From Pannonibacter carbonis (GTDB lineage: Bacteria > Pseudomonadota > Alphaproteobacteria > Rhizobiales > Stappiaceae), in NCBI RefSeq assembly GCF_003012935.1, contig NZ_PUDR01000001.1:1-64000 (forward strand): a stretch of DNA of 64,000 nt, written 5' to 3'. The notes beneath the pieces are model-generated. The model was not told where the DNA came from and did not search any database. It saw only the letters and a list, made by a program, of their open reading frames with translations. Shown here piece after piece: positions 35,920 to 58,726 of this stretch. Position 1 is the first letter of the stretch; every line of letters starts with the position of its first letter. The position numbers were made by a program, and so were the translations under genes.

Positions 35920-37416
35920 ATGACCCGTCACCCGGCTTCGCCGCTCACGCCCGCTCGTCCCGACCGTTTCCCGCTGGCTCCGGGGCTGGAGATCAGCCGC
36001 GCCCTCACGGGCCTGTGGCAGGTGGCCGACATCGAACGCAAGTCCGGCCCGATCGACCCTGATCTTGGCGCGGACTGGCTGGAGGCCTATGTCCGCGACG
36101 GCTTCACCACCTTCGACATGGCCGACCATTACGGCACCTCCGAGCTGATCACCGGCCGCCTGCTGTCGCGCTTTGCAAACGGCAGCGCCGACCGGCCGCT
36201 TGCCTTCACCAAATGGTGCCCCGAACCCGGCCCGATGACCGCCGACGTGGTGCGCGCGGGCGTCGAGGAGCGGCTGGCGCGCCTCGGCACCGACTGCATC
36301 GACCTGCTGCAGTTCCATTGGTGGAGCTTCGAGCATCCGGGCTGGCTCGACGCCCTGCACGAGCTGACGCGCCTGCGGGCCGAGGGACTGATCCGCGAGA
36401 TCGGCGTCACCAATTTCGATGCCGCCCACCTGCATCTGGCACTGGCCGACGGCATTCCGCTCGCCACCAACCAGGTCTCCTTCTCGCTGGTGGACCGGCG
36501 CGCGGCGGGCCAGCTGGCCGAGGTCTGCAGCGCCCACGGCGTGCATCTTCTGGCCTATGGCACGCTCTGCGGCGGCTTCCTGTCCGGCCGCTGGCTCGGC
36601 CAGCCGGAGCCGCACGACATCGAGGACTGGAGCAAGATGAAGTACAAGCGCTTCATCGACACCATCGGTGGCTGGACTGCCTTCCAGGGCATCCTTGCGG
36701 CTGCCGGCGCCATCGCCACGAAGCACGGCGTCTCGATTTCCAACGTCGCCACCCGCTGGGTCCTCGAGCAGACGGCAGTCGCCGGCGTCATCATCGGCGC
36801 ACGCCTCGGCGAGGCCATGCACACCGCCGACAATCTCAAGCTCTTCGGCTTCAGGCTGGACGCGGAGGACCACGCTCGTCTCGATGCGGCCTTTGCCGCG
36901 ACACAGCCCGTGCCGGGCGACTGCGGCGATGAATACCGCAAGCCCCCCTTCCTCACCGCCTCGGGGGATCTCAGCCATCACCTCAGCGAGATGCCGCGCG
37001 CCAGCACCACCGAACTGACGCCGCACCGCCCCGGCGGCCTGCGCGTGCTGACCGGCTCGGAGTGGGAGGACATCGCCGGCTATTGCCGCGCCCAGCGCAT
37101 CGGCGACCGCATCCTCGTCTCCGGCACCACGGCCACGGCCGGCGCCAGCCGCCCCGTCGCCCCGCAGGATGCCGCCGCCCAGACCACCTATATCCTCGAC
37201 AAGATCCAGTCGGCCCTGACCGCGCTCGGCGCCAGCGCCGAGGACGTGGTCCGCACCCGCGTCTATCTCACTGACCCGGAGGATGCCTTGCCGGTGTCGC
37301 GGGCCCATGGCCGCGTCTTCGGCGAGATCAAGCCCGCCAACACCCTCCTCGCCGTCGCCCGCCTGATCGGCGACTACAAGGTGGAAATCGAGGCCGAGGC
37401 GATCATCCGGCCGTAA
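35920..37416 (+). CDS. Aldo/keto reductase fused to a RidA-like domain
   Basis: A 498-residue two-domain protein. Residues 1 to about 345 form an aldo/keto reductase barrel (catalytic Tyr in MADHYG near residue 69, Lys in AFTKW near 97, IIGARLG near the domain end). Residues about 365-498 are a complete RidA/YjgF domain (ILVSGTTAT, VVRTRVYLTDPED, VARLIGDYKVEIEAEAI). In RidA enamine/imine deaminases the motif PAR supplies the carboxylate-binding arginine; here it reads PAN (Asn474), so classic deaminase activity is doubtful. It follows the GntR gene after 44 bases. The N-terminal half is a paralogue of the reductase in the divergent operon. Confidence 0.9.
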   Translation: MTRHPASPLTPARPDRFPLAPGLEISRALTGLWQVADIERKSGPIDPDLGADWLEAYVRDGFTTFDMADHYGTSELITGRLLSRFANGSADRPLAFTKWCPEPGPMTADVVRAGVEERLARLGTDCIDLLQFHWWSFEHPGWLDALHELTRLRAEGLIREIGVTNFDAAHLHLALADGIPLATNQVSFSLVDRRAAGQLAEVCSAHGVHLLAYGTLCGGFLSGRWLGQPEPHDIEDWSKMKYKRFIDTIGGWTAFQGILAAAGAIATKHGVSISNVATRWVLEQTAVAGVIIGARLGEAMHTADNLKLFGFRLDAEDHARLDAAFAATQPVPGDCGDEYRKPPFLTASGDLSHHLSEMPRASTTELTPHRPGGLRVLTGSEWEDIAGYCRAQRIGDRILVSGTTATAGASRPVAPQDAAAQTTYILDKIQSALTALGASAEDVVRTRVYLTDPEDALPVSRAHGRVFGEIKPANTLLAVARLIGDYKVEIEAEAIIRP

Positions 37417-39418: not shown

Positions 39419-40243
39419 TCAGCCGCCGAAGCCGAAGCCGACCGGCATGTCCGTCAGCGTGATGCCAAAGGGCTCGAGGCTCTTGACGATCCAGGTCTGG
39501 TTGTTGCCGATGCGGCGGTTGTATTCCGCCCAAGCCGAAACGAAGCTCTTGAAGGTCTCGTCGGCACCATAGTTGAGGGCAACCACCGAAGGCGTGGACA
39601 AGACCGGCGTCGGCACTTTCACGGCACCGATGTTCGGCGCCTTCTTGGAAATGACGAGACCGTTCAGCATCGTGTTGACGAGACCATCGGCCTTGCCCGT
39701 TGTCACCGCAATGATGGCTTCATCGCGGGTCTTGAAGCGCAGGATGTTGGCTTTCGGCAGGTATTGCTGCGTGATGAGATCCTGGGCCGATCCCATGTCG
39801 ACGGCAAATGTGTACTTGGGATCGTTGAGTTCGCCCCAGGTCTTGCCTGTCAGCTCATCCTTGGCCGAGACGATGATGAAGCTGTTGTAGTAGGTCGGAT
39901 CGGAGAAGGAGACCGACATGGCGCGAACCGGCGTCGCAGTCACGGCGAAGGCCATGTCGACCTTGCCGCTCTGAACGTCGAGGATCGCATTGGCCCAGCT
40001 GGATTCAACGATTTCCAGCTTCACATCCAGCGTCTTGGCGATGTCCGAGGCCATGTCGATGACGAAGCCCTGCCATTCCCCGGTCCGCGGATCCTTGTTG
40101 AAATACGGTACCTCGTTGAGGATGGCCGGAATGCGCAGGACGCCGCGCGCGCGGATGTCCTCGATCGTGCCCGCACTGGCGGCGCTTGCGCCGATTGACA
40201 GGGCCATGGCGGCAACGCCGCAGAGTTTGGCGAAGAAATTCAT
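39419..40243 (-). CDS. Polar amino acid ABC substrate-binding protein (SBP family 3)
   Basis: Periplasmic binding protein of 274 residues. ATG 40243 has GGGAGGTC upstream and starts a Sec signal peptide cleaved after ASA near residue 23. Family 3 marks: IRARGVLRI, QGFVIDMASDIAKTL and the MAFAVTATPVRAMSVSFSDPTYY segment that binds amino acids. The only fitting permease and ATPase are at 47604-49053 on the other strand, in the divergent operon, so the three probably form one HAAT-type importer. Homologues bind glutamate, glutamine, arginine, cystine or opines. Confidence 0.9.
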   Translation of the reverse strand: MNFFAKLCGVAAMALSIGASAASAGTIEDIRARGVLRIPAILNEVPYFNKDPRTGEWQGFVIDMASDIAKTLDVKLEIVESSWANAILDVQSGKVDMAFAVTATPVRAMSVSFSDPTYYNSFIIVSAKDELTGKTWGELNDPKYTFAVDMGSAQDLITQQYLPKANILRFKTRDEAIIAVTTGKADGLVNTMLNGLVISKKAPNIGAVKVPTPVLSTPSVVALNYGADETFKSFVSAWAEYNRRIGNNQTWIVKSLEPFGITLTDMPVGFGFGG

Positions 40244-40380
40244 GGGTCTGATGACCTCCCTTGTTCCCCTGGGATAGCTGGCGGACCGGCCATGCTGCCG
40301 GCCTCTCTTGGCCGCCCTCAAGCCTAGAGCCCGTGCTAGGCGGAACAATGCTAGAGACGCCGATGCTCTTATGGCGTTTT

Positions 40381-41301
40381 TTATATGTTGCTGTCGCCGC
40401 CACGCGGCGGATCCAGTACCGGGCCCACCAGTTCGCGCTGGCAGTCTTCGTAGAGACGCTGCACCATCGGGTGCTTCTGCAGGAAGCCGGCCGTGCCGAA
40501 GTAGACCCGGACTTCAGGCAGGTTCTCCAGCCGCAGACTGCTGATCACCACGTCCTCAGGCGACACGCACCAGGACGGAATGATGGAAAAGCCGAGCCCC
40601 TCCTCGACGCAGCGCTTGACCGACGAACTGCCCGAGGTGGAAATCGACGGCAGGACCGTGGCGCCGTTGCGCCCGAGGAAATCGACCGCGAGATTGCGCA
40701 GCGTCTGGCCAGGCTCATAGGTGATGAAGGGGCGCCCCTGCGCCCACAAGGGCACATCCGCAGGCGCAGGCGCGGCACCCCATGAGCGTGGATAGACAAG
40801 GCTCAGCCGGTAGCTGCCCAGAAGCCGTTGCGGCACCACAGGATCGCCGAAGAACCGCTCCGAAATGCAAACATCCAGGCTCCCGTTCTTGACCAGTTCG
40901 GCGAGCACCGTGTCACGCTCATAGACCGCGAATTCCATGTCCGGAAACTCTTCCCGGAACCGCGTCAGCACCTTCGGAAACAGATAGAAGAAGATCGCCT
41001 GGGGCATGCCGACCCGCAGCGCTGACCGCTGGTTTTCGATCAGCTTGGTCAGCCGCTCGAGCATGATGTCGAGTTCGGGATGCAGCAGGCTGTAGAGCGC
41101 CCGGCCGCGCGGCGTCAGTGCGATCCGTTTGGCACCTTGTTCGGAATCGATCAGCTTGCCATTGAGGATCTGTTCCAGCCGGCGTACGTGGTTGGCCGCA
41201 GACTGATAGCTGAGGTTCAGCTCGCGCGCCGCTCCGGAGAACGAGCCATGCCGGGCGACCTGATAGAAGGTCTGGATGAGCGTGAGGCTGATCTTGGCCA
41301 T
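40381..41301 (-). CDS. LysR family transcriptional regulator
   Basis: A 306-residue LysR protein. ATG 41301 has GGGAGAC at good distance; the upstream extension of 75 codons lacks support. The helix-turn-helix contains SFSGAARELNLSYQSAANHV near residues 20-39, then a substrate-binding domain. It is divergent from the dehydrogenase operon and upstream of the binding protein, so it is the obvious local regulator. The C-terminal half has the usual FSIIPSW segment of the sensor domain. Confidence 0.9.
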   Translation of the reverse strand: MAKISLTLIQTFYQVARHGSFSGAARELNLSYQSAANHVRRLEQILNGKLIDSEQGAKRIALTPRGRALYSLLHPELDIMLERLTKLIENQRSALRVGMPQAIFFYLFPKVLTRFREEFPDMEFAVYERDTVLAELVKNGSLDVCISERFFGDPVVPQRLLGSYRLSLVYPRSWGAAPAPADVPLWAQGRPFITYEPGQTLRNLAVDFLGRNGATVLPSISTSGSSSVKRCVEEGLGFSIIPSWCVSPEDVVISSLRLENLPEVRVYFGTAGFLQKHPMVQRLYEDCQRELVGPVLDPPRGGDSNI

Positions 41302-41347
41302 GCGTGTCTCCCTGCCGCACCGCCATAAGGCGCAAGGCTTGCTTAGC

Positions 41348-41390
41348 CGATACAAAAATTCGCAGCAAGCAAGGCCGTCATCTTGTATCG
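41348..41390. promoter_or_regulatory. Inverted repeat in the LysR/dehydrogenase intergenic region
   Basis: CGATACAA (41348-41355) and TTGTATCG (41383-41390) are perfect 8-base inverted copies 35 bases apart centre to centre. They lie between the divergent LysR gene and the amino acid dehydrogenase operon. The spacing suits a LysR tetramer contacting recognition and activation sites. The role is inferred from position and symmetry. Confidence 0.5.
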
Positions 41391-41497
41391 ACGGTTCCGG
41401 CCCCGCCCCGCCACACTCCCCCCATTCCAGCCCGCAAGGGCCATCACCTGCAATCGAAGGGGCCGGGTCGACCGTGGCTGCTACGCCTTCCTCCCGC

Positions 41498-42670
41498 ATG
41501 ACCGTGATCGTCGCCGGCGCCGGCATCGTCGGCAGTGCCTGCGCCTATTTCCTCGGCCAGGCCGGCGCGCAGGTCCATCTGCTGGACGCCAGCGCTCCGG
41601 CGGCAGAGGCCTCGGGTGCTGCGGACGGGGCCGTATCAGTTGCTTCCAAGCGCCCCGGCCCGCTGATGACCGCCGCGCTTTCGGGCATTGCGCTGTATCG
41701 CGAGCTTGAGGAAAGCGGACCGCTGTCCGGCCTGTTCCACCGCCGCTCGACCTTCATCGTCGCGGCGAGCGAGGACGAGCAGAAGGTGCTGGAGACCCAC
41801 GCCACCGCGCTTGCCGATGCCGGCGTCGTCATCACCGCCATTGCAGGCGACGACATCCCCAGGCGTTTCCCGGCCCTGTCCAGGGCCGCCAGCCTGATCA
41901 TTGAAGTGCAAGGCGAAGGCCATGCCATCGGCTATCAGGTGGTCCACCGGCTCATCGCCGCATCGGGGGCAACAGTCCACCGGTCGACGCCTGTCACCCG
42001 CCTCGTCCCGGATCGGTCGGGAACACGTCTTGCCGGGGTCGAGACCCCCGCGGGCTTCCTCGGCGCGGATGCGGTGGTGCTGGCGACCGGCAATGGCAGC
42101 TCCGCCCTGCTTGGCCTTGCAGATGTACTGACACCACGCAAGGGACAGCTTCTCATTACCGAGCGTGATCCGGCTCTCAACGCCGCCATGCCAGGCTCGA
42201 TCATGTCGGGCCGGTATCTCCTGTCAAAGGGTAGCCAGAAGACGGCAAGCGCAGCCCCCGCTCCGGCAGGTCCGGCACGCGGTTTCGGCCTTGTGATCGA
42301 TCCCCTGCGCACCGGCCAGTTCCTTATTGGCGGCACCCGCGAGGATCACGGCAACAAGCAGGAAACGGATCTCTCCGCCGTCTCCCGTATCCTCGCCGAT
42401 GCGGTTGCGCTGGTCCCCGACCTTGCCCGCCTGCGGCTCTTGCGCAGTTTCGCCGGAGCCCGCGCCGCCGTGCGGGACGGCCTGCCACTGGTTGGCCGGC
42501 TTCCCGGCCTCAGCAATGCCGTTGTCGCCACCGGCTTCGAGGGGGATGGCATCTGCCTCGGTCCGGTGATGGGCCGCGCCGTCGCCCGTCTTCTGCTGGA
42601 CAAGGAACCAGGCCTGGATCTGGCGCCTTTTGCCCCGAACCGGTTTCAGTCCAGCGGAGATGCTGCATGA
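41498..42670 (+). CDS. FAD-dependent amino acid/opine dehydrogenase, DadA/HcnC-like subunit
   Basis: A 390-residue flavoprotein of the glycine/D-amino acid oxidase (DAO) family. The FAD loop GAGIVGSACAYFL lies at residues 6-18, and the C-terminal GFEGDGICLGPVMG matches the DAO flavin segment. The start is uncertain: ATG 41498 lacks a clear Shine-Dalgarno sequence, whereas GTG 41474, eight codons upstream, has AAGGGG before it. It is followed by a small ferredoxin-like and a second FAD subunit, the arrangement of heterotrimeric HcnABC, opine oxidases and D-hydroxyproline dehydrogenase. It should oxidise the alpha C-N bond of an amino or N-alkylated amino acid. First gene of the operon. Confidence 0.85.
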   Translation: MTVIVAGAGIVGSACAYFLGQAGAQVHLLDASAPAAEASGAADGAVSVASKRPGPLMTAALSGIALYRELEESGPLSGLFHRRSTFIVAASEDEQKVLETHATALADAGVVITAIAGDDIPRRFPALSRAASLIIEVQGEGHAIGYQVVHRLIAASGATVHRSTPVTRLVPDRSGTRLAGVETPAGFLGADAVVLATGNGSSALLGLADVLTPRKGQLLITERDPALNAAMPGSIMSGRYLLSKGSQKTASAAPAPAGPARGFGLVIDPLRTGQFLIGGTREDHGNKQETDLSAVSRILADAVALVPDLARLRLLRSFAGARAAVRDGLPLVGRLPGLSNAVVATGFEGDGICLGPVMGRAVARLLLDKEPGLDLAPFAPNRFQSSGDAA

Positions 42671-42921
42671 CCCCTGCAACCTTCCGCTGGATGTCGCAAG
42701 ATGTGCCCTTCCGCCCGGGAGAGACCATCGCTGCAGCCCTGTCTGCCGCAGGCGTCGTTTCCTACGGGCGAGATCAGGCCGGCGCCCCGTCCCGGTATTT
42801 CTGCGGCGTCGGCGCGTGCCAGTGCTGTCTTGTCAACGTCGACGGCCGCCCCATCGAGGCCTGCCTGACTTTGGCCCGTCCCGGCCTTTCGGTCACGCCG
42901 CTGGAGCTTGACCATGCCTGA
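42667..42921 (+). CDS. [2Fe-2S] ferredoxin-like subunit of dehydrogenase (HcnA-like)
   Basis: An 84-residue protein with cysteine pattern FCGVGACQCC plus a later Cys in IEACLT, that is C-x4-C-x2-C...C of a plant-type [2Fe-2S] cluster (Fer2_4 class). Its ATG overlaps the previous stop and its stop overlaps the next start. In HcnABC-like dehydrogenases this small subunit passes electrons between the two flavin subunits. Confidence 0.88.
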   Translation: MTPATFRWMSQDVPFRPGETIAAALSAAGVVSYGRDQAGAPSRYFCGVGACQCCLVNVDGRPIEACLTLARPGLSVTPLELDHA

Positions 42922-44326
42922 CATCACGCCGGACACATTAAACCTGACACCGGATGTTCTGATCATCGGCGGCGGCCCGGCCGGAATGTCGGTCGCCATC
43001 GAATGCGCCCGCGCAGGCCTTGTCGTTACATTGGTGGAACAACGTCCCCGCCTTGGCGGCGCGATCTTTCGTCAGCCGGTCAACGGGGTCGCTCCGCTCG
43101 CACTCGCAGCTGGCCCCGAACGTCTGAAGGCAAGGCTGTTCAAGGACTTTGCTGCACAGGTAGCCCGAATTCACTGTGTCTACGGCGCCCTGTTCGCCGG
43201 CCTCGACGCGGATGGGTTGGCCATCGTGGAGGACCGGCAGACCTCGCGCGTCCTGCCGTTCCGCCCACGTGCGCTGGTCCTGGCGACTGGCGCTGTCGAA
43301 GCCGTTCTGCCCCGCCCGGGCTGGACCCTGCCCGGCGTCACGACAGCCGGTGGCCTGCAGGTCCTGATGAAGGAAACGGGCCGCGCGCCGCAGGGCCGTG
43401 TTGTCCTCGCCGGCTCGGGGCCTTTGCTCCTTGCGCTGGCCGCCCAGCTCATCCGCCTTGGCCGCCCGCCGCTTGCGGTTCTGGAGGCAGGGGATCCGAT
43501 CCGCCGGCCCGGCGCGAGCCTCGCCCTGCTGGCCCACCCCTCGCTTGTCAGTGAAGCTGCTTCGTATCTCGCGACGATTGCTCTTGCCCGCGTGCCTTGG
43601 CATCGCGGAGCACAGTTCGAGCGGATCGATCCCTGCGACCAGGCCCTGATCGTGACCTGGCGCGATCACAAGGGGCACCTCGCAAGCCTTGCAGCCGACC
43701 ATGTCAGCCTGCACGACGGGCTGGCACCCAACAACTTCGGTCTCCCGGCCGAAGCACGGGGCGGCGTCAAATCTTCTGCAGGCAATCCTCTGGTCATCCG
43801 GGTCGGCGATTGCCGCGAGGCCCTTGGTGCCGCTGCCGCCGTCGCTGGAGGCGAGGCCACGGGACGCAATCTCGCTGCTCATCTTCTCACCGGAGGAGAG
43901 GTCATTGCGGCCGAAGCAACGCTCGCCCGGCATCGCTCTGCCCAGCATCACATCGCCCGTGCCTTTGCACCGCGCCGGGGACAAGAGCTGGCAACGCAAC
44001 TGCCCGATGACACCGTGATCTGCCGCTGCGAAGGACGCACTCTCGCGGACCTGAAGAAACTGGTGGCCGAGTCACCAGGCCTGTCGGCGCGCGAACTGAA
44101 GCTCAATGGCCGCTTCGCCATGGGCGCCTGTCAGGGCCGCTTCTGTGCCAGCAACGCCGCAAGGCTCCTTGGCGAACTCTCGCACAGCGCGGATCAGGTA
44201 CCTGTCTCCGCCCTCACGGGCCAGCGCTGGCCCTTGCGCCCCGTTTCCATTGCCGCCCTCGCCGCCGCCGTCGCCGATGCGCCGCAGCCGGGCTCCTCCA
44301 CCAAAGACGACAAGGACATCAGATGA
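42914..44326 (+). CDS. FAD/NAD(P)-type oxidoreductase subunit with C-terminal [2Fe-2S] (HcnB/OoxA-like)
   Basis: A 470-residue flavoprotein. FAD-binding GGGPAGMSVA lies near residue 18, a second Rossmann segment near 155, and at the C-terminus a BFD-like cluster with CRCEG and GACQGRFC cysteines (about 375-420). ATG 42914 has GGAG seven bases upstream and was preferred to a TTG six bases before. Together with the two preceding genes it forms a three-subunit membrane-linked dehydrogenase. Homologues act on octopine, nopaline, glycine (to cyanide) or D-hydroxyproline; the substrate here is not fixed by motif. Confidence 0.88.
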   Translation: MPDITPDTLNLTPDVLIIGGGPAGMSVAIECARAGLVVTLVEQRPRLGGAIFRQPVNGVAPLALAAGPERLKARLFKDFAAQVARIHCVYGALFAGLDADGLAIVEDRQTSRVLPFRPRALVLATGAVEAVLPRPGWTLPGVTTAGGLQVLMKETGRAPQGRVVLAGSGPLLLALAAQLIRLGRPPLAVLEAGDPIRRPGASLALLAHPSLVSEAASYLATIALARVPWHRGAQFERIDPCDQALIVTWRDHKGHLASLAADHVSLHDGLAPNNFGLPAEARGGVKSSAGNPLVIRVGDCREALGAAAAVAGGEATGRNLAAHLLTGGEVIAAEATLARHRSAQHHIARAFAPRRGQELATQLPDDTVICRCEGRTLADLKKLVAESPGLSARELKLNGRFAMGACQGRFCASNAARLLGELSHSADQVPVSALTGQRWPLRPVSIAALAAAVADAPQPGSSTKDDKDIR

Positions 44327-45720
44327 CCCAGCTCAGCACTGCAGCCGTCTTGCGACACGACGAAATCGTCGTCCGCAATCCGTTCGACGGCGTCGAGGCC
44401 GGTCGCGTGGCAGAAAGCACGTCGTCGGAGATCGTCGCAGCGCTAACCCGCGCCCGCAAGGCACAAGCCGAGTTCCGCCACTCCACGCCGGCCCGGCGAC
44501 GGGCTCTTTTGAATGCCCTGGCAGCAGAAATTGCCACCGACGCCGATGCACTCGCCACCCTCATCTGCGCCGAGATGGGAAAGACCATCTGCGAGGCGCG
44601 CAATGAGGTGCGCCGGGCCGAGAACACCCTGAAGCTCTCCGGCGACGCAGCCACGTTCCTTGATGGCGAGGCCTTGCACTGCGCCATTGTGGAAGGCGGC
44701 GTCGACCGCCTGGCCACCGTGACCTATCAGCCGGTCGGCGTCATCGGAGCGATCACCCCGTTCAACTACCCGCTCAATCTGCTGTGCCACAAGCTTGGCC
44801 CCGCCATCGCCGCAGGCAATGCCGTCGTTGCCAAGCCCTCCCCCAAGGCCCCGCTCGCTGCAGCCCGGCTCTGCGAGCTGGCCGTCCGCGCTGGCTGGCC
44901 GCGCGACCTCTTCCAGGTCGTGCATGGCGGTGCAGACGCTGCGCTGACCCTCGCCCGCGCGCCCATCGACCTGCTCTCCTTTACGGGCGGCCCCGCTGCC
45001 GGTCTCGCCCTGAAGAACGCCAGCGGACTTGTCCGTTGCCTCATGGAGCTGGGCGGAAATGATCCGCTGTTCGTCCTTGCAGATGCCGATCTCGAACGCG
45101 CCGTCGCCACGGCCATCGGCCATCGTTTCGAGATCGCCGGCCAGAGCTGCGCTGCGGTGAAGAAGCTGTACCTGCATCACTCCATCGCGGCCGAGTTCAC
45201 CGAACGGCTTCTTGCAGCCGTTGCGGCGGTCACGACCGGCGATCCGCGAGACTTGGCAACCGATATGGGGCCGGTCATTGATGAGCCCGGTGCCCGCCTC
45301 GTTCAGGACCGGATCCTGGCGACGATTGCCGGCGGTGCCAGCCTGCTGGCTGGCGGCACACGTGAGGGTACACTGGTCGCCCCGACGGTCCTTGCCAATG
45401 TGGCGGCAGACGCCCCGGTCATTGCCGACGAGACCTTTGGTCCGGTCATTGCCATCCGCACCTTCACCGATGCGCAGGCCGCCATCGCGGAAGTCAACGC
45501 AGGCGCCTACGGCCTGCAGGCCGGCGTGTTCACCAACGACCACGCCATGGTGAAGCTGTTCTCGCGCGAGCTCATCGTCGGCGGCGTCATGATCAACGAA
45601 GGCCCCGACTTCCGGGCCGAACACGTGCCCTTTGGCGGCGTCAAGCGCAGCGGCCTCGGTCGCGAGGGCGTGCGCATCACCTTGCGCGAAATGAGCGAGC
45701 CAAAGGTCGTTATCGACTGA
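44323..45720 (+). CDS. NAD(P)-dependent aldehyde dehydrogenase
   Basis: A 465-residue ALDH-superfamily enzyme. General base E242 lies in MELGGNDPL and the nucleophile C276 in AGQSCAAVKK. TPFNYPLNLL, GNAVVAKPSP and the C-terminal PFGGVKRSGLGREG segment are all present. The CxAVKK context resembles the lactaldehyde/phosphonoacetaldehyde/semialdehyde branch. It oxidises an aldehyde made by this operon, plausibly an amino acid semialdehyde. It ATGA-overlaps the flavoprotein and is followed after 11 bases by the DapB-like gene. Confidence 0.9.
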   Translation: MTQLSTAAVLRHDEIVVRNPFDGVEAGRVAESTSSEIVAALTRARKAQAEFRHSTPARRRALLNALAAEIATDADALATLICAEMGKTICEARNEVRRAENTLKLSGDAATFLDGEALHCAIVEGGVDRLATVTYQPVGVIGAITPFNYPLNLLCHKLGPAIAAGNAVVAKPSPKAPLAAARLCELAVRAGWPRDLFQVVHGGADAALTLARAPIDLLSFTGGPAAGLALKNASGLVRCLMELGGNDPLFVLADADLERAVATAIGHRFEIAGQSCAAVKKLYLHHSIAAEFTERLLAAVAAVTTGDPRDLATDMGPVIDEPGARLVQDRILATIAGGASLLAGGTREGTLVAPTVLANVAADAPVIADETFGPVIAIRTFTDAQAAIAEVNAGAYGLQAGVFTNDHAMVKLFSRELIVGGVMINEGPDFRAEHVPFGGVKRSGLGREGVRITLREMSEPKVVID

Positions 45721-45731
45721 AGGAGACCACC

Positions 45732-46475
45732 ATGCGCATTGCCATCATGGGGGCGTCCGGCCGCGTCGGCACCCGGCTCGTGGAACTGGTCCTCGCCAAT
45801 CCCGGCCTGGAACTCGCTGCTGCCCTCGTCTCACCGCGCTCAGTGCTCGTCGGCACGCCGGTCGCCGGCGGCAGCATCGAGTATCGGCCAGCCGAAGCGG
45901 CGATGAACAGCCATTGCGACCTATTGATCGACTTCTCCTCGCCAGCCGCCTCGCTCGCCCTCCAGCAGCAGGTCGGCCTGAAGCCCATGCCGATGGTGAT
46001 CGGCACGACCGGCTTCACAGCTGAAGAAGATGCGGCCCTGACCGGTTTTGCGGCCCATCGTCCGATGGTGGTGAGCGCGAACTTCGCCCTCGGTTTCGAG
46101 GCCTTCCGGCAGGCGGCGGAACATTTCGCGCGTTTGATGCCGGGCGGCGAAGCCAGCGTCGGCGAGGTCTATCACGCCCGCAAGAAGGTTGATCCCTCCG
46201 GCACATCCCGCTGGCTTGCAAGCACGGTCCGCGATGCCCGCTCGGCGGTGATGGGCTTTGCAGCCCCGACCCCGGAGATCCATGTGGAACGCGAAGGCGA
46301 TACCGTCGGGATCAACGAGGTTCGCTTCGATCTCGGGTCGGCTGAGCTCCTGATGTCCTACCGTGTCCACACGCTAGCTGCCTACGCCGAAGGCGCACTG
46401 GCGGCGGCCGATTGGCTGCACACCCGTCGCCCGGCCCATGGCCGCTATTCCCTCGCAGACACAAAGACCGTCTGA
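45732..46475 (+). CDS. DapB-like (dihydrodipicolinate reductase family) protein
   Basis: A 247-residue homologue of 4-hydroxy-tetrahydrodipicolinate reductase. The nucleotide loop GASGRVG (residues 7-13), IGTTGF (90-95) and the substrate segment ending DPSGTS (154-159) match DapB. In E. coli DapB the catalytic pair is His159/Lys163 within EAHHRHK. Here the aligned stretch reads EVYHARK, so Tyr147 stands at the His159 position and Lys151 is kept. AAGGAGACC precedes the ATG. Presence in an operon with an amino acid dehydrogenase, an ALDH and a DapA argues for a catabolic or side role rather than lysine synthesis. Confidence 0.85.
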   Translation: MRIAIMGASGRVGTRLVELVLANPGLELAAALVSPRSVLVGTPVAGGSIEYRPAEAAMNSHCDLLIDFSSPAASLALQQQVGLKPMPMVIGTTGFTAEEDAALTGFAAHRPMVVSANFALGFEAFRQAAEHFARLMPGGEASVGEVYHARKKVDPSGTSRWLASTVRDARSAVMGFAAPTPEIHVEREGDTVGINEVRFDLGSAELLMSYRVHTLAAYAEGALAAADWLHTRRPAHGRYSLADTKTV

Positions 46476-46495
46476 CCACTCCGGAGACCTTTCCG

Positions 46496-47413
46496 ATGAC
46501 CGATCTGACCAGCCATTTCCGCGGCGTCTTCACAGCCCTCATCACCCCGTTCCGCGATGGCGCCGTTGATCATGTCGCCTTTGCCGAGCTTGTCGAACGC
46601 CAGCTGGAAGCGGGCGTTTCCGGCCTCGTCCCAGTAGGCACAACCGGGGAGGCGGCAACCCTGTCGGAGGAAGAGGCCGAGGATCTCATCGCCCGCACCG
46701 TGAAGCTCGCGGCAGGGCGCGCCATGGTCCTTGCTGGCGCCGGGGCCAATGACACGCGCAAGACCATCGAGAAGGTCCAGCGCGCCGAAGACGCCGGCGC
46801 TGACGCCGTCCTCGTCGTCACCCCCTACTACAACAAGCCGACCCAGGCCGGACTGGTCGCGCATTACAGCGCGGTGGCCGAGGCGACAAGGCTCCCTGTC
46901 GTGCTCTACTCCGTGCCGGGGCGCTGCGGGGTCGAAATAGCGCCGGAAACATGCGCCACTCTTGCGGAACGCCATTCCAACATCGTCGCCATCAAGGAAG
47001 CTGGCGGCACGGCCACCCGCGTCACCCAGATCCGCCAGGCCTGCGGCGACCGGCTCATCATCCACTCCGGCGACGACGGACTGACCCTGCCTTTCCTGTC
47101 TGTTGGAGCTATCGGCGTCACGTCGGTGGTATCCAATGTTGCCCCCCGCGAGATGGTCCAGCTGGTCAGGGCCTGGGAAGCCGGCGACACAGCCCGGGCG
47201 CTTGAGCTGCACGAACTCATTGCCGAACTCACGGATGGCATGTTCATTGAGTCCAATCCGGGCCCGGTGAAGGCAGCGCTTGCCTTGTCCAACCTGGCTG
47301 GACCGGAACTTCGCCTGCCGATGGTGCCGGTCAGCGACGCCAGCCGCCAGAAGATTGCAGCGATCCTCGGCCGCTTCACCCATGCGGCCGCAGCCTTCCA
47401 AGAAATGCGCTAA
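46496..47413 (+). CDS. dapA: 4-hydroxy-tetrahydrodipicolinate synthase (DapA family)
   Basis: A 305-residue TIM-barrel aldolase with the full DapA active site: GTTGE (T49, T50), PYYNKPT (Y111, Y112), LYSVPGR (Y138, R143) and the Schiff-base lysine K167 in AIKEAG. DapA condenses pyruvate with aspartate semialdehyde, and the reaction is reversible in principle. ATG 46496 has GGAG upstream. It follows the DapB-like gene within the dehydrogenase operon and precedes transporter genes. It may be a second catabolic copy; related DapA-family members also act as deaminases of pyrroline-4-hydroxy-2-carboxylate, so the symbol reflects motif match, not proven role. Confidence 0.85.
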   Translation: MTDLTSHFRGVFTALITPFRDGAVDHVAFAELVERQLEAGVSGLVPVGTTGEAATLSEEEAEDLIARTVKLAAGRAMVLAGAGANDTRKTIEKVQRAEDAGADAVLVVTPYYNKPTQAGLVAHYSAVAEATRLPVVLYSVPGRCGVEIAPETCATLAERHSNIVAIKEAGGTATRVTQIRQACGDRLIIHSGDDGLTLPFLSVGAIGVTSVVSNVAPREMVQLVRAWEAGDTARALELHELIAELTDGMFIESNPGPVKAALALSNLAGPELRLPMVPVSDASRQKIAAILGRFTHAAAAFQEMR

Positions 47414-47553
47414 GGCCCCGTCCTTGCTTTGCATTGCAGCAGAGCGAGACGGCATGAAACAGTCAGACTGCCCGTCCGTGCCCGCTGCGGCCGGGCCAAT
47501 ATCAAGGATCCCTCACGTGCCTGACGCGTGAGCCAGAATCCAGGGGAACAGCA

Positions 47554-47607
47554 ATGCGAACAATGACAGTGGCCAGAGGTCACCAGGCGCGGGGAGGCAC
47601 CTCGTGA
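47554..47607 (+). CDS. 17-codon leader frame upstream of amino acid permease
   Basis: A short frame ([17 protein letters not shown]) starts at ATG 47554 with GGGGA six bases upstream. It ends in a TGA that overlaps the GTG start of the permease (GTGA). The gap before it (47414-47553) holds a small hairpin, CTCACG...CGTGAG at 47512-47532, and no other gene. The geometry suggests a translated leader coupled to the permease. No homology can be claimed. Confidence 0.4.
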   Translation: MRTMTVARGHQARGGTS

Positions 47608-48269
47608 CATACACTTGGGATTTTCACTCGGTCTGGCAATACCGCGACCTGTTCATGTGGGGGCTCTGGATCAGCGTCGTCTACACCGTCGGGTCAATCG
47701 TGCTTGGCATCCTGATCGGCTTCCTGACCTGCGCCATGCGGCTATCCGGATGGCGGATCCTGAGCTTCATCGCCAGGGTCTATCAGGAGATTTTCCGCTG
47801 CACCCCGCTTCTGGTGCAGTTGCTGTGGTTCTACTACGCCTTCCCGCTGCTGATCGGCGCGTCCATCGACAACCGCGTCGCGGCGCTGCTCACCCTGTCG
47901 CTCTATGTCGGCGCCTTCTACGCCGAGATCTTCCGGGGCGGGATCGTCTCTATCGACAAGGGACAACGCGAGGCCGCAGCTGCCATCGGGATGAGTTCCT
48001 GGCAGGCCATGCATCGCATCATCCTGCCGCAGGCGTTGAAGCGGATGCTGCCGTCCTTCATCAACCAGTCGGTGATCCAGTTCAAGAACACATCTCTGGT
48101 CTCGGTCATCTCGGTCGCGGACCTCGCCTACATGGCGGCCGTGGTCAACGGCCAGACCTACCGGCCGCTGGAATCCTACACCTTCATGGCCGTGCTCTAC
48201 ATCGCCCTGCTGCTTCCCATGACGCAGATCGCCGACTGGGTGGAAAAGCGCCTGCGGGTCAGTGATTGA
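47604..48269 (+). CDS. Polar amino acid ABC permease (HAAT type)
   Basis: A 221-residue permease starting at GTG 47604, preceded by GGGGAGG. The conserved motif [20 protein letters not shown] lies near residues 58-77, and the EAA-like loop [13 protein letters not shown]...[11 protein letters not shown] near 119-150. Members form dimers and serve glutamine, arginine, histidine, cystine or opine uptake. Its ATPase follows, and its binding protein is probably the minus-strand gene at 39419-40243. Confidence 0.92.
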
Positions 48270-48279
48270 GGAGATCCAG

Positions 48280-49053
48280 ATGACCACCACATCCACGGCC
48301 ACCGCACCTGTCATCGAGGCAATCGGCCTGCGCAAGACGTTTGGCACCCATGAGGTGCTGAAAGGCCTCAACCTCGGTCTCGCTCGCGGCGAGGTCGTCG
48401 CCCTCATTGGTCCGTCCGGCTCGGGCAAGTCGACCTTCATCCGGTGCCTGAACCGGATGGAGCACCCGACCGGCGGCGAGATCCGTTTCCGTGACAAGCC
48501 GGTAGGCGAATCCTTTCGCGACAGCGAAGCTGCAATCGGCATCGGCACATTGCGGCGTCACGTCGGCATGGTATTCCAGCACTTCAACCTGTTCCCGCAC
48601 AAGACCGTGCTGCAGAACGTCACTGAAGGGCCAATTGTCGTCTGCAAGCGCCCGCGTCGGGAAACAGAAGAGCTGGCCAAGGACCTCCTGGCCCAGGTCG
48701 GTCTTTCCGACAAGCATGCAGCCTTCCCCAATCACCTGTCAGGTGGCCAGAAGCAGCGCGTCGCCATTGCCCGGGCGCTTGCCATGCAGCCGGATGTCCT
48801 GCTCCTCGATGAGGTGACAAGTGCGCTCGATCCGGAACTGGTCGGTGAGGTGCTGGCGGTCATTCGCTCGCTCGCCGAGGCTGGCATGACCATGGCCATC
48901 GTCACCCACGAAATGGCCTTTGCCGCCGAGGTCGCAAGCCGCGTGCTTTTTCTGGACCAGGGCGTCATCGCCGAGGAAGGCAGTCCGGCCGAGGTCATTC
49001 TCAATCCCGCCAATCCGCGCCTGCAGGCCTTTGTTGCCCGTTTCAAGGCCTGA
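48280..49053 (+). CDS. Polar amino acid ABC ATPase (GlnQ/HisP-like)
   Basis: A 257-residue ATPase. ATG 48280 has GAGGAG at ideal spacing; a GTG 18 bases upstream is less likely. Walker [19 protein letters not shown] (near residue 41), signature LSGGQKQR and Walker [21 protein letters not shown] are the standard GlnQ/HisP forms. The H-loop is VTHEM. Completes the HAAT importer with the preceding permease. Confidence 0.93.
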
Positions 49054-49167
49054 GCTCGGACCCCGGTGCAATCCAGCCATCGGGATCCGGTCGGACCTGC
49101 GCGATGCACAAGCATTTTCAAGGCGGGATGCAGCCGCGTCCGCAAGCCTTGGTACGAGGACACCGGA

Positions 49168-50244
49168 ATGACCCTCAAGCGCATTACCATTTTCGGAGCC
49201 GGCAACATCGGCAGCGCCCTTGCCACACTCCTTGCCCGCACCGGCCGTTTTGAACTGACCGTCTGCGATGTTTCCGAGGACGCGCTTGAGCCCTTGCGGG
49301 CGCACTCCCCGGCGGTTCGGCTGCTGCGATTGCCGCGCGGGGAAGAGCATCAGGCGCTCGCCCCCGGCTGTGACCTCGTCATTGGGGCAGTTCCCGACCA
49401 GGCACTCCCCATGGTCGCCTCGGCGGCTCTCAAGGCTTGCTGCCACTATCTCGACTTCGTCTCGACACCCGACCCGCTAAAACCGATTCTCGCCGATCTT
49501 GCGCGCACACGAACCGTTCTTCCGGCGAGCGGTGTGTCGCCCGGGTTCGTCGGTGCACTGGCCGCCTCCCTGCTTCAGGGCTTTTCACCGGTCGGCGATC
49601 TGATCATTCGGGTCGGCGCCATCCCGCGCTACCCGACCAACCGGCTCGGCTACGGCCAGATCTGGAATGTTGACGGCTTGATCGAGGAATACACCCGTCC
49701 GAGCGCCGCGATCCGCGATAGCCAACGGGTGAACGTCAGTCCGCTCGAGGACTATGAGCGCCTCACCGTCGACGGCATGGCGCTGGAGGCCTTCACCACC
49801 TCCGGCGGCATGTGCGACCTCGACGTCTTTGCCCCCTTTGCGCCGCGCAACGTCACGGTGAAGACCATACGTTACCCCGGTCATCTCGATTACATGCGCT
49901 TCCTGCTGGATGACCTGGGCCTGCGCCATCGCCGGGACATGCTGCGGTCTCTGCTGATGAACGGGTTGCCGGTGATCGAGGACGATGTGCTGCATGTTCT
50001 GTTGACCGCTCGCGGGACACGGGGGCGACAGCCAAGTGAGCGAACCCTCCGCTACAGCTTTGCCCCCAACCCCGATGTTGGCCCGTTCAATGCGCTGACA
50101 TCACTTGCAACAGGCTATGCGACCAGCCTTATCTGCGCGCTCGCAGACGGTCTCTTGCCTGCAGCAGGCATGGTGACACCGCAGATGCTCGATGCGGGCA
50201 CACTGCTTGCCTCGCCCTTCATCGCGCCCCTGCTTGAAGCCTGA
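49168..50244 (+). CDS. Saccharopine dehydrogenase / lysine 6-dehydrogenase family protein
   Basis: A 358-residue NAD(P)-dependent enzyme. The Rossmann loop GAGNIGS lies near residue 9. The mid-protein segments EAFTTSGGMCDL and TIRYPGHLDYM are the hallmark of the saccharopine reductase and L-lysine 6-dehydrogenase group. These enzymes act at a terminal C-N bond and give or use amino-adipate semialdehyde-type products that cyclise to imines. ATG 49168 has GAGGA upstream. Last gene of the operon. On diaminopimelate such an enzyme would give tetrahydrodipicolinate, which would link it to the DapB- and DapA-like proteins (inference). Confidence 0.85.
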   Translation: MTLKRITIFGAGNIGSALATLLARTGRFELTVCDVSEDALEPLRAHSPAVRLLRLPRGEEHQALAPGCDLVIGAVPDQALPMVASAALKACCHYLDFVSTPDPLKPILADLARTRTVLPASGVSPGFVGALAASLLQGFSPVGDLIIRVGAIPRYPTNRLGYGQIWNVDGLIEEYTRPSAAIRDSQRVNVSPLEDYERLTVDGMALEAFTTSGGMCDLDVFAPFAPRNVTVKTIRYPGHLDYMRFLLDDLGLRHRRDMLRSLLMNGLPVIEDDVLHVLLTARGTRGRQPSERTLRYSFAPNPDVGPFNALTSLATGYATSLICALADGLLPAAGMVTPQMLDAGTLLASPFIAPLLEA

Positions 50245-50251
50245 GGCTGCT

Positions 50252-50776
50252 TCACACAGCCTCGGGCCGATCCAGCAGCTCAAGCAACTGCTGGAACCGC
50301 AGGCCCGCCATGGACACTCCGTCCAGCACCATGTCGTCCAGTTCGTCCTCGGCCGGCGCGCTGCCGCCCTTGCCGCGCAGCGTCGTCGTGCGCAAGCGGT
50401 CGGCAAGGAAAATAGCCAGGGCCTTGTAGAACCGCGCCGCAAAGGCCGGTGTCTCGGCGAGGCGCTTCTCGATCAGCGCCTTCTCCAGCGCCAGCACGCG
50501 GGTTTCGCGCGCCGCCTCGACCGTTGCCGAGGGCGGGGCCTTGTCGACGAAGGACATTTCACCCAGGATCTCACCGCTCGACAGGCTCGCCACCACGCCG
50601 ACGCCGCTGACGCGCACATCCACCTGCCCGTCCAGCACGATGAACAGATGCGCCGTCGCGCGCCCTTCCTCGATCAGCACCTGGCCCGGCTTGAGGCTCA
50701 CCCGCCGGCCGGCCTGCCCCATCCAGGCGATGTCCGCATCATCGAGCTGACCAAGGATGTAAAGCACCTTGCGCAT
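50252..50776 (-). CDS. Cyclic nucleotide-binding domain protein
   Basis: A 174-residue protein made of one cNMP/CAP effector domain. The beta-roll segment ATAHLFIVLDGQVDVRVSG lies near residues 40-58, and the phosphate-binding-cassette region GEILGEMSFVDKAPPSATVEA near 68-88, where PPSATV replaces the PRSATV seen in cAMP binders. No DNA-binding helix-turn-helix follows. GAGGGAG precedes the ATG. It lies 22 bases after the NHLM-type ABC gene and is probably the last gene of that export operon; it may sense a nucleotide to control export. Confidence 0.8.
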   Translation of the reverse strand: MRKVLYILGQLDDADIAWMGQAGRRVSLKPGQVLIEEGRATAHLFIVLDGQVDVRVSGVGVVASLSSGEILGEMSFVDKAPPSATVEAARETRVLALEKALIEKRLAETPAFAARFYKALAIFLADRLRTTTLRGKGGSAPAEDELDDMVLDGVSMAGLRFQQLLELLDRPEAV

Positions 50777-50798
50777 GAAATAACTCCCTCAAAAAATC

Positions 50799-53093
50799 TC
50801 AGACGAGCTGCCGGCGGGCATGGGCGGCAAAGGCCCCGTTCGCCTGCATCAGCTCCGTGAATGATCCGGTCTCGACCACCCGGCCACGGTCCAGCATGAC
50901 AATCCGGTCCACCTTCTCGATGGTGCTGAGCCGGTGCGCGATGACGACGCGCGTGACGGGCAGGTTCGCCAGCGTCTCGGTGACGATGGCCTGCGTGCGG
51001 TTGTCGAGCGCGCTGGTGGCCTCGTCCAGCAGCAGGATCGCAGGCTTGCTGACCAGCGCGCGCGCGATCAGGATGCGTTGCCGCTGTCCGCCGGACAGGG
51101 TGCCACCGCCATCGAGCAGCACCGTATGCATGCCCATCGGCATCTGCTCTATATCCCGGTCCAGCCCCACCAGCCGCGCCGCCTCCAGCGCCTCATCAAG
51201 GCCGAGGCCGCTTTCGCCGGCGATGTTGGCGTGAATGCTGCCGGCCATGATCCGGCCATGCTGCAGCACCACGCCGATCTGGCGGCGCAGGTCCGACAGG
51301 TCGAGCCGGTTTAGCGAATGCCCGTCATAGAAGATGTCGCCCAGCTCCGGCCGGTCAAAGCCCAGGAGCAGGCGCAGCAGCGTCGACTTGCCCGAGCCCG
51401 AGGCCCCGACGATGGCGACGAATTCCCCCCGCTCGATCTTCACCGTCAGTTCGCTGAGCGCGCGCGGTGCCATCTCGCTGTAGCGGAACGACACGTTGCG
51501 GATATCGATGGCCCCGGCGAGCGTCACCGGACGGCTGTCGACCGGCGGGGTATCCGGCACGGCCGAGATGATCGGCTCAGCACGCTCGATCAGCGGAATG
51601 GCCGTCAGCGATTGCGTCAGCGCTCCCGCCAGCGCCGAGATTGCCGCCAGAACCTGCGCGAAGGCCGTTGTCACGGTGACGAAGTCTGCCAGCGAGAACG
51701 CCGGCGCGGTGCCGCCTTTCAGCGCATCCGCCTTCATCAGATAGACGATGGTGGCATAAAGGGTCAGCGTCGCCAGTTGCGGCAGCAAGGCATCCAGCGT
51801 CGCCTGCCAGTTCGCCCAGCGCCCAGCGGCGACCGTATGGCCGATGTTGCGCGAAAACAGGCTGGCCCAGCGGGCAAAGCCCATTCGTTCGCTGGCCGAG
51901 GCGCGCAGCTTGCCGAGCCCCATCAGCATCTGCACGACGAAGCTGTCGAGCCGTCCTTTCTCGGTCAGGCGCCGGCGCTCGTGCAACAGGCCCCGGTAGC
52001 TGACAAAACCATTCGCAGCCCCCAGAACCAGCGCCAGTCCCAGCGCCAGCAGCGCCAGCCGCCAGTCGACCGTCAGGATCGGAATGAGGCTGATCAGGCT
52101 GAAGACGCTGCTCGCCGCAGCGCTCGAAAAGCTCTGGGTGATCACCTGGCGCGCGCTCTGGATACCCAGCACACGGTCCGTGATATCGCCCACGGAGAAA
52201 GCGCGGAAAAACGCCGGCGGCATGCGCAGGAGCCGCAGCAGCAGCGCCGGCTGCAGCCGGCCCTCGAAGCCAAGTTCCGACCGCAACATGGTCAGCGCCT
52301 TGCCGGCCTCGAACACGGTGCGCGCCAGTGCCGCCGCCACCAGCCCGCCGACGATGACACCGGTCAGCCCGATGTCGCCATAGGGAATGGCATTGCTGAT
52401 CAGGAAGCGGGAGCCATAGGGCACGAGCATGGCCAGCAAGGCCGCTGCCAGCATCAAGGCCACCAGACGCACCCGGTCGGCCCCGAGCGTCGCAAATCCG
52501 AAGAAGAACAGGTCCCGGAACCGCAGCGGATGGGAGGGCAGCGCCGGATAGAGCTGCAGCGCATCGGCCGCAAGTCCGCCTTCGCCGCTGCCTTCCATGG
52601 CGTCGCGCGCGACGGGGCGGGCAACGCCCCGGTCACGCATCACCCACTGCCCCTTGATGCAGATCAGCGCCACAGGCCGCCGTTCCGGCCCGAGATAGCC
52701 GAGCATCGGCGGTCCCGGCTGGCGCGTCCAGCCCGGCCGCAGCAGGACACTGCGCGAGATCATCTGGTGCCGCGCCAGCACAGCCTGCAGCCGTGCGCCC
52801 GCGTCACGGGTCTCCGCAGCCATCTCGAAGGCCTCAAGCCGCGGCGTCACGGCCATGGCCGAGAGCACGCAGACGAGCGCGGATTTCAGCGGATCAGTGC
52901 CGGCGGTCAGGGCGAGCGCGCTGCCCCTTGCGGCCGCTCCTCCGCGCTCGGCCAGTTCAGCCAGCGCGTCGGTCGTGATCGCCTCACCACGCCGGCGGCG
53001 GCGCTCGCGCCAGTCCTCGCCGCCCGAGGCTGCAAGGGGCGCAAGGCCGGCGTCAGCGCCGTTCTCATCGGGGGATGGCCGGGTCTCATGCAT
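50799..53093 (-). CDS. NHLM/NHLP-type peptide export ABC transporter without peptidase (ABC2-like)
   Basis: A 764-residue protein. About 210 N-terminal soluble residues carry no recognisable peptidase; then six membrane helices (about 220-470) and a nucleotide-binding domain with Walker A GASGSGKST, signature LSGGQRQR and Walker B ILLLDEATSALD. The architecture and pairing with a C39-containing ABC protein fit the ABC2 component of NHLM/NHLP bacteriocin-type systems. It probably forms a heterodimer with the next upstream gene. Confidence 0.85.
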   Translation of the reverse strand: MHETRPSPDENGADAGLAPLAASGGEDWRERRRRRGEAITTDALAELAERGGAAARGSALALTAGTDPLKSALVCVLSAMAVTPRLEAFEMAAETRDAGARLQAVLARHQMISRSVLLRPGWTRQPGPPMLGYLGPERRPVALICIKGQWVMRDRGVARPVARDAMEGSGEGGLAADALQLYPALPSHPLRFRDLFFFGFATLGADRVRLVALMLAAALLAMLVPYGSRFLISNAIPYGDIGLTGVIVGGLVAAALARTVFEAGKALTMLRSELGFEGRLQPALLLRLLRMPPAFFRAFSVGDITDRVLGIQSARQVITQSFSSAAASSVFSLISLIPILTVDWRLALLALGLALVLGAANGFVSYRGLLHERRRLTEKGRLDSFVVQMLMGLGKLRASASERMGFARWASLFSRNIGHTVAAGRWANWQATLDALLPQLATLTLYATIVYLMKADALKGGTAPAFSLADFVTVTTAFAQVLAAISALAGALTQSLTAIPLIERAEPIISAVPDTPPVDSRPVTLAGAIDIRNVSFRYSEMAPRALSELTVKIERGEFVAIVGASGSGKSTLLRLLLGFDRPELGDIFYDGHSLNRLDLSDLRRQIGVVLQHGRIMAGSIHANIAGESGLGLDEALEAARLVGLDRDIEQMPMGMHTVLLDGGGTLSGGQRQRILIARALVSKPAILLLDEATSALDNRTQAIVTETLANLPVTRVVIAHRLSTIEKVDRIVMLDRGRVVETGSFTELMQANGAFAAHARRQLV

Positions 53094-53105
53094 CGTCCCG
53101 CCTCC

Positions 53106-55292: not shown

Positions 55293-55299
55293 GACGCGC

Positions 55300-56622: not shown

Positions 56623-56640
56623 CTACGGTCTTTCGAAAGG

Positions 56641-58185: not shown

Positions 58186-58726
58186 GACCTGAATTACGCC
58201 CGCGCTTGCCGGCAAACCTGCCGCCCCATTTCCCCTGTTACGCCCTGTCTGTCCGGTTATCTCGGATAGACCCCGTTTTTGTCATCGCCTGCCGATGATC
58301 TCTCCGGCCCGGCTTGACAGGTTTGCACTTGCCCACTCAAGCAACCCCTCGATGCATTTTAAAGAAAGTAAACGACTATCTTTTCCAACCACCAACAAAA
58401 CTCACCGAACAAAAGGCCAAGAATCCTCCTGACCAGCAATCATTCACAGAAATGAATATTGAAAATAAACTCGCTCATCAAACCACCGGGACAATAGTCG
58501 ACCCGCGCAAGTGAGTGCATCAACGCCCGTTGATGGTTCACATCTTTATATGATCCGCCGGCGTGGTAAGTATCGTTCAGGGTTCGTCGTCGGACCTCGA
58601 CAAAACGCAGCTCGCAAGCCGACACGACAAGCTTCAGGCAAGAACGGGCAACACCTGAACCGCCCCGGCGCCAGTCTCGATCCATTCGAGCGAGCAAGTC
58701 GCCGCAAGCCGAAATGAAGGACCTGC
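58186..58726. other. Divergent, AT-rich intergenic region
   Basis: About 540 bases between the TolC-like gene (minus) and the winged-helix-like gene (plus). Positions 58340-58480 are clearly AT-richer than the rest of the window. Perfect TTGACA at 58314-58319 has no good -10 at 17 bases. Open frames on both strands were checked for a double-glycine leader peptide; none is convincing. Confidence 0.4.

Follow-up and report, generated by a model that had tools for sequence, protein, structure and literature searches.

Within the 64,000-nucleotide stretch of Pannonibacter carbonis DNA analysed here (positions 1–64,000 of the forward strand of contig NZ_PUDR01000001.1, assembly GCF_003012935.1; hereafter the window), positions 39419–50244 hold eleven genes, two on the minus strand and nine in a plus-strand operon, which may serve the breakdown of a compound of the diaminopimelate (DAP) type. 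The operon opens with a DAO-family FAD subunit (41498–42670; PF01266, 164.6 bits), a 2Fe-2S small subunit that overlaps the genes on both its sides (42667–42921; Fer2_4, PF13510, 52.4 bits) and a second FAD subunit with a C-terminal Cys cluster, CRCEG...GACQGRFC (42914–44326), presumed together to form a three-subunit amino or imino acid dehydrogenase. There follow an aldehyde dehydrogenase, proposed to act on aspartate semialdehyde (44323–45720; Aldedh, PF00171, 438.5 bits), a divergent DapB-like oxidoreductase (45732–46475; DapB_N/DapB_C, 87.5/50.9 bits), a DapA paralogue (46496–47413; DHDPS, 303.6 bits), the single permease gene of a polar amino acid ABC transporter (47604–48269), an ABC transporter ATPase (48280–49053) and an enzyme of the saccharopine/lysine-6-dehydrogenase family (hereafter SDH; 49168–50244; PF16653 and PF03435, Sacchrp_dh_C/NADP, 52.0/38.8 bits). 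The two minus-strand genes encode a LysR-family regulator, transcribed away from the operon (40381–41301; HTH_1 and LysR_substrate), and, behind it, a solute-binding protein of the polar amino acid type (39419–40243; SBP_bac_3, 69.1 bits). The Pfam scores given are all above the curated cut-offs. The start of the FAD subunit is more likely to be the ATG at 41498 than the first start of its open reading frame (ORF) at 41276, and that of the SDH gene was revised to the ATG at 49168. Overlaps of 4 to 8 bases link the first four plus-strand genes, which is the pattern of translationally coupled genes. Every gene that a preliminary description of this sequence had placed in the operon, from the three-subunit dehydrogenase to SDH, and the divergent LysR and binding-protein genes that it took to complete the set, were found.

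With the SDH protein as query, our genome collection yielded 25 loci, and because 22 of these keep all eleven genes in one order the gene set is a real conserved module and no chance cluster. One further locus (L060) has the eleven genes rearranged, and two from Bosea (L061 and L062) have no DapB, while their binding-protein gene lies within the operon. Among the 25 we count a locus labelled Arenimonas (L040, from a metagenome-assembled genome), which has its flanks in common with Ciceribacter L039 and is probably a misbinned contig of the Ciceribacter type. Under the crude ORF calling used, and apart from an ORF antisense to SDH, every flanking gene family present in at least three loci traced to a group of four similar ones (L039, L040, L041 and L050). 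Since flanks are not common outside these four, the module seems to be bounded by the binding protein and SDH; a hint of the substrate sought in conserved flanking genes was not obtained with the same crude calls.

The interval between the LysR and DAO genes carries an inverted repeat, GATACAA-N27-TTGTATC (41349–41389), which is the only match in the window, arose in none of 100 shuffles and is present in all 23 LysR–DAO intergenic regions compared (22 loci and the window). When ten genomes were searched whole, seven had a single site each, no more than about 5.2 kb from the operon DapB, and three more distant genomes (G126, G492 and G493) had none. The repeat is probably a LysR operator private to the module.

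The distribution of the module is patchy. Of 87 genomes in the family, 4 have operon-type DapB (at least 71 % identity), as have 2 of the 5 in the genus; in a sample of 385 genomes from the class, 2 had it at E ≤ 1e-30, one of them the window's own. Operon-type DapB is also encoded on five plasmid records, of which the two examined whole (L122 and L123) carry the operon. Moreover, the window DapB is nearer to the Stappia copy (85 % identity) than to the copy from its own genus (71 %), which suggests horizontal transfer.

The DapA paralogue is of the biosynthetic kind, passing the dapA equivalog model TIGR00674 with 324.4 bits (cut-off 206.15). In what we take to be the E. coli numbering and residue roles, lysine-feedback positions included, all 27 orthologues retain the active-site residues Thr44, Thr45, Tyr107, Tyr133, Arg138 and Lys161, in line with the full active site claimed beforehand. 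(Residue counts include the window, with n=27 for DapA and n=25 for DapB; L009 and L010 duplicate L038 and L048 and were left out; L011, from the family search, was kept.) Some of the feedback positions, on the other hand, are changed in every copy, His53 being Asp or Glu and His56 Ala or Ser in all 27, Ser48 being Ala in all 27 and Glu84 never being Glu; the housekeeping DapA retains His53, His56 and Glu84. The operon DapA is likely, not certain, to have been freed from lysine feedback control, and a complete active site with probable lysine insensitivity would fit a route that runs at any lysine level.

That DapA and DapB are here extra copies, not serving lysine synthesis, had also been proposed, together with a search of the genome for canonical dapA and dapB; that search located both, so the operon copies are not the only ones. 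Five DHDPS-family genes are present, and the one beside a gene that by eye reads as smpB was assigned as the housekeeping dapA (43 % identity to the operon protein). The housekeeping dapB scores 151.7 bits with DapB_C as against 52.7 for the operon gene, and adjoins a phosphoglycerate mutase-like gene (recognized by eye). Each of the 25 genomes examined (those of 24 loci, L051 left aside, and G126) has a DapB of at least 140 bits besides lower-scoring ones. A further DHDPS-family gene (107.9 bits) lies apart from the operon in the first third of the window (18635–19492, plus strand). We have rejected a role of the operon in lysine biosynthesis because of the separate housekeeping dapA and dapB. 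An anabolic or back-up module using DapA and DapB in the forward direction, which the complete DapA active site would allow, is very improbable, considering those housekeeping genes, an importer, FAD trimer and aldehyde dehydrogenase that suit breakdown, and a DapB that is altered or missing.

Catabolism of hydroxyproline with DapA acting as a Pyr4H2C deaminase must also be weighed here. Hydroxyproline operons contain a D-amino acid or D-hydroxyproline dehydrogenase, a DapA-like deaminase, an aldehyde dehydrogenase and an ABC importer, and we take their overall layout and families to be the same as those of the present operon, which, however, has no proline-racemase-family gene. Both PF05544 matches of the genome lie outside the window, at C1:98301–101425, in a separate hydroxyproline-type locus that starts about 48 kb downstream of the operon on the same contig and combines two proline-racemase-family genes, an aldehyde dehydrogenase and a DapA-like protein without TPYYNKP and Arg138. 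The operon DapA does not read as a HypD-type deaminase, being only 31 % identical to the protein of that locus as against 43 % to the housekeeping DapA. Hydroxyproline was rejected as substrate on account of the separate locus, and we regard it as extremely improbable.

Among solved proteins, Pyrococcus L-lysine dehydrogenase is the nearest to SDH in both sequence and structure. An AlphaFold model of SDH (predicted local distance difference test score, pLDDT, 90.6) matched this structure (3abi) with Z 36.5 and a root-mean-square deviation of 2.6 over 336 aligned residues, ahead of carboxyspermidine and saccharopine dehydrogenases (Z 33.6 and 33.5) and meso-DAP dehydrogenases (15.6 to 15.7), so that fold and the two Pfam matches above cut-off place it in the L-lysine 6-dehydrogenase family. 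All 34 operon SDH copies read (the window, L038–L062, L067, L089, L119, L122, L123, L154, L155 and L156, of which L089 and L119 look like one and the same operon) carry Arg159. By contrast, 42 readable non-operon paralogues have Ala (40), Gly (1) or Arg (1) at this position, and the operon enzymes lack the Ala of the N-Ala-L-x-Y motif typical of them. These came from 43 in all (L070–L073, L075–L088 and L129–L153, with L153 not fitting the motif pattern), called non-operon where the short flanks of 1.5 kb held no operon-like ATPase gene (at least 62 % identity in operons). Since an Lrp gene lies near 35 of the 43 and an aldehyde dehydrogenase gene adjoins 3 of 19 non-operon paralogues viewed in wider context (L103, L104 and L106), a setting that lysine catabolism would lead one to expect, many of them look like lysine 6-dehydrogenases. 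DAP being lysine with one more carboxylate on the carbon that such enzymes oxidize, we propose that Arg159 may be a fitting for the extra carboxylate of the substrate. Separately, a lysine-6-dehydrogenase-like gene on plasmid pRiA4b (L120:10007–11110) is paired with a divergently oriented Lrp gene and lies close to iaaH and a gene of the RolB family.

We suggest that the module may be an inducible catabolic set for a C7 compound of the DAP type, such as free DAP, a cyclic imine or imino form or a hydroxylated form. The substrate would be imported by the ABC importer, and one of its amino or imino centres would be oxidized to tetrahydrodipicolinate by the FAD/2Fe-2S trimer or by an NAD-dependent SDH, pictured as a lysine 6-dehydrogenase refitted with Arg for the additional carboxylate. 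Conversion of tetrahydrodipicolinate to 4-hydroxytetrahydrodipicolinate would fall to the DapB-like enzyme or, in operons lacking it, to the housekeeping DapB; a feedback-free DapA would then split the product into pyruvate and aspartate semialdehyde. By turning the semialdehyde irreversibly into aspartate, the aldehyde dehydrogenase would pull the chain. The core of this scheme, from a C7 diamino- or imino-dicarboxylate through (hydroxy)tetrahydrodipicolinate and reverse DapA to pyruvate and aspartate, we put forward tentatively, as having slightly less than an even chance of being correct.

Several observations weigh against it, the first of them concerning the DapB-like protein. Its score with the dapB equivalog model TIGR00036 is 109.7 bits, below the cut-off of 122, and in what we take to be the E. 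coli numbering and roles (His159 catalytic, Lys163 and the SGT motif binding substrate, Arg39 holding the NADPH phosphate) His159 is replaced by Tyr in 24 of 25 copies, the window included, and Tyr159 is found in five further loci too. Arg240 is replaced by Leu in 23 of 25, and these two changes weaken the claim of ordinary DapB chemistry. Lys163 and the SGT motif are each kept in 24 of 25, and a change of Arg39 to Ser in 23 of 25 fits use of NAD(H) by the protein. The designation DapB-like given beforehand holds in that both Pfam domains match, but not at position 159 or at the equivalog cut-off. His159 is retained only in L046, where the motif is otherwise broken; in this Aminobacter carboxidus locus the DapB-like frame is open with its active-site motif destroyed, which resembles decay, and the remaining operon is kept.

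Moreover, the DapB gene is missing from the operons L061, L062, L089/L119 and L156, and operon-type DapB was not found elsewhere in the four genomes searched for it (G493, G494, G609 and G926), where only proteins of 28–33 % identity were present. Extra DapB-like genes in the Aminobacter and Bosea genomes were considered as relocated operon genes and rejected, given their unrelated surroundings. The repeated loss of DapB can be read in two ways: either the housekeeping DapB substitutes for it or the step lies off the main line. SDH is followed in the operons of Bosea and Chelatococcus by an Asp/Glu-racemase-like gene, the Bosea one scoring under the Pfam cut-off and above that of NCBIfam NF005679. 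These genes, which end DapB-less operons (Chelatococcus L119:12083–12793; Bosea L061:11110–11847), show two Cys motifs by eye, and Chelatococcus has a second racemase-family gene past LysR (L119:1099–1773).

It is on the DapB-less operons that the main rival draws, namely a retro-aldol pathway that starts from a different 4-hydroxylated amino or imino acid (such as 4-hydroxypipecolate or a compound of the 4-hydroxylysine type), in which the FAD trimer would yield a 4-hydroxy-2-keto acid or cyclic imine, DapA would release pyruvate and an aldehyde, the aldehyde dehydrogenase would oxidize the latter and DapB would be accessory. Operons without DapB do retain the other genes (L156 starts at a contig edge, with its first genes unseen), and a binding protein without the Asp that holds an amino group, as described below, is what a cyclic imino acid might want. 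Yet a DapA with Arg138 and the other DapA residues, far above the equivalog cut-off, points to aspartate semialdehyde, and the route leaves the DapB-fold partner of most operons and the SDH enzyme unexplained; we consider it unlikely, if worth keeping in view.

Other points against a DAP route come from the binding protein, which by sequence is nearest, among solved structures, to AncCDT-1 and other chains of the cyclohexadienyl dehydratase (CDT) clade and scores 48.1 with a cystine solute-binding protein model that has a cut-off of 312. With residue roles that we take over from arginine-binding relatives, the carboxylate-holding Arg is kept in 26 of 26 copies, while in all 26 the Asp that would hold the alpha-amino group is Thr and that of the side-chain site is Ile, losses that make the protein ill suited to a standard alpha-amino acid. 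Its residues speak against a plain L-amino acid as ligand; cyclic or N-substituted dicarboxylates would be compatible. Like 5kkw, which we take to be Pu1068, the binding protein has a deletion of one residue and has lost the Asp. According to Kaczmarski et al. (PMC7683729), AncCDT-2 has lost arginine binding, its natural ligand is unidentified and Pu1068 is a descendant.

Opine-type catabolism, in which the FAD trimer or SDH would split a secondary amine linking an amino acid to either a keto acid or aspartate semialdehyde, and the semialdehyde would be oxidized or recycled through DapA, would go well with a binding protein not made for a free alpha-amino group. The trimer, by its architecture alone, presumably recalls opine oxidases and D-hydroxyproline dehydrogenases, and the SDH model matches carboxyspermidine and saccharopine dehydrogenases as well. 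Nonetheless, the closest structure is a lysine dehydrogenase, most paralogues lie near Lrp and the DapA of every operon is left unexplained, which makes this explanation improbable.

For the proposed DAP route there are further difficulties. The operon has two different amine oxidoreductases, one more than a simple DAP scheme needs, and the non-operon paralogue L151 carries the Arg of the operon SDH as well. The feedback residues Ala49, Asn80 and Tyr106 are still present in the operon DapA, for which reason loss of lysine control is called only likely. The aldehyde dehydrogenase clears no specific NCBIfam cut-off, its best-scoring models, which are for small aldehydes (sulfoacetaldehyde, lactaldehyde and phosphonoacetaldehyde), all falling short. 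Its search against solved structures gave no match at 1e-90, too strict a threshold for this to count as a difficulty.

Of the DAP route sketched in the preliminary description we thus retain the catabolic layout, DapA chemistry at the node of pyruvate and aspartate semialdehyde, the extra dapA and dapB, and for SDH a lysine-like substrate with an additional acid group. Its DapB-type step is shaky, as His159 is replaced and several operons have lost the gene or keep it in a degenerate form, and import of free meso-diaminopimelate is unsupported, the binding protein being without the residues that hold an alpha-amino group. Of the alternatives that it named, hydroxyproline has become unlikely and opine-like or hydroxylated imino acids are still viable. 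With slightly more reserve than for the chemistry of the route, we propose that the module may be a dedicated, patchily distributed pathway from DAP-type compounds to pyruvate and aspartate through reversed DapB and DapA, in which the Ala-to-Arg change would make SDH a DAP 6-dehydrogenase and the binding protein would name a ligand class for its orphan CDT-clade relatives.

Among neighbouring genes, the operon is adjoined on the minus strand (50252–58215) by an NHLP-type bacteriocin export set comprising a cyclic-nucleotide-binding protein, two NHLM ABC subunits (one with a C39 peptidase), an NHLM HlyD-type protein and a NodT-type outer membrane protein. On its other side, a single plus-strand ORF (35920–37416) codes for a fusion of aldo/keto reductase (PF00248) and RidA-type (PF01042) domains.

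Bacterial cell walls hold a large amount of carbon and nitrogen in the form of DAP. If the proposal is correct, the module would be a dedicated genetic route for breakdown of the DAP carbon skeleton, and neither such a route nor the operon was found described in the portion of the open-licence PubMed Central literature returned for the topics of DAP catabolism, operons with DapA, DapB and SDH, 4-hydroxypipecolate and lysine 6-dehydrogenase. It would also mean that DapA runs backwards in nature, and would provide a testable ligand for binding proteins related to cyclohexadienyl dehydratase.

Finally, considering the module beside known systems, it has in common with the DAP branch of lysine biosynthesis a DapA with complete active site and a DapB-fold protein, encoded by adjacent genes, but here three feedback residues are lost from DapA, the catalytic His of DapB is replaced, and both are extra to the housekeeping copies and joined to an importer, an FAD trimer and an aldehyde dehydrogenase. 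Hydroxyproline degradation operons are alike in layout and families; the present operon differs in having a DapA of biosynthetic type and DapB-like and SDH genes, and no proline-racemase-family gene. With the L-lysine 6-dehydrogenase/saccharopine dehydrogenase family, SDH shares fold and family, and departs from it in Arg159 for Ala and in its location within an operon, not beside Lrp. The CDT-clade binding proteins (AncCDT-1, AncCDT-2 and Pu1068) are the nearest solved relatives of the operon binding protein, and whereas the natural ligand of AncCDT-2 is given as unidentified in PMC7683729, the gene context here suggests one that is DAP-like or a cyclic dicarboxylate.

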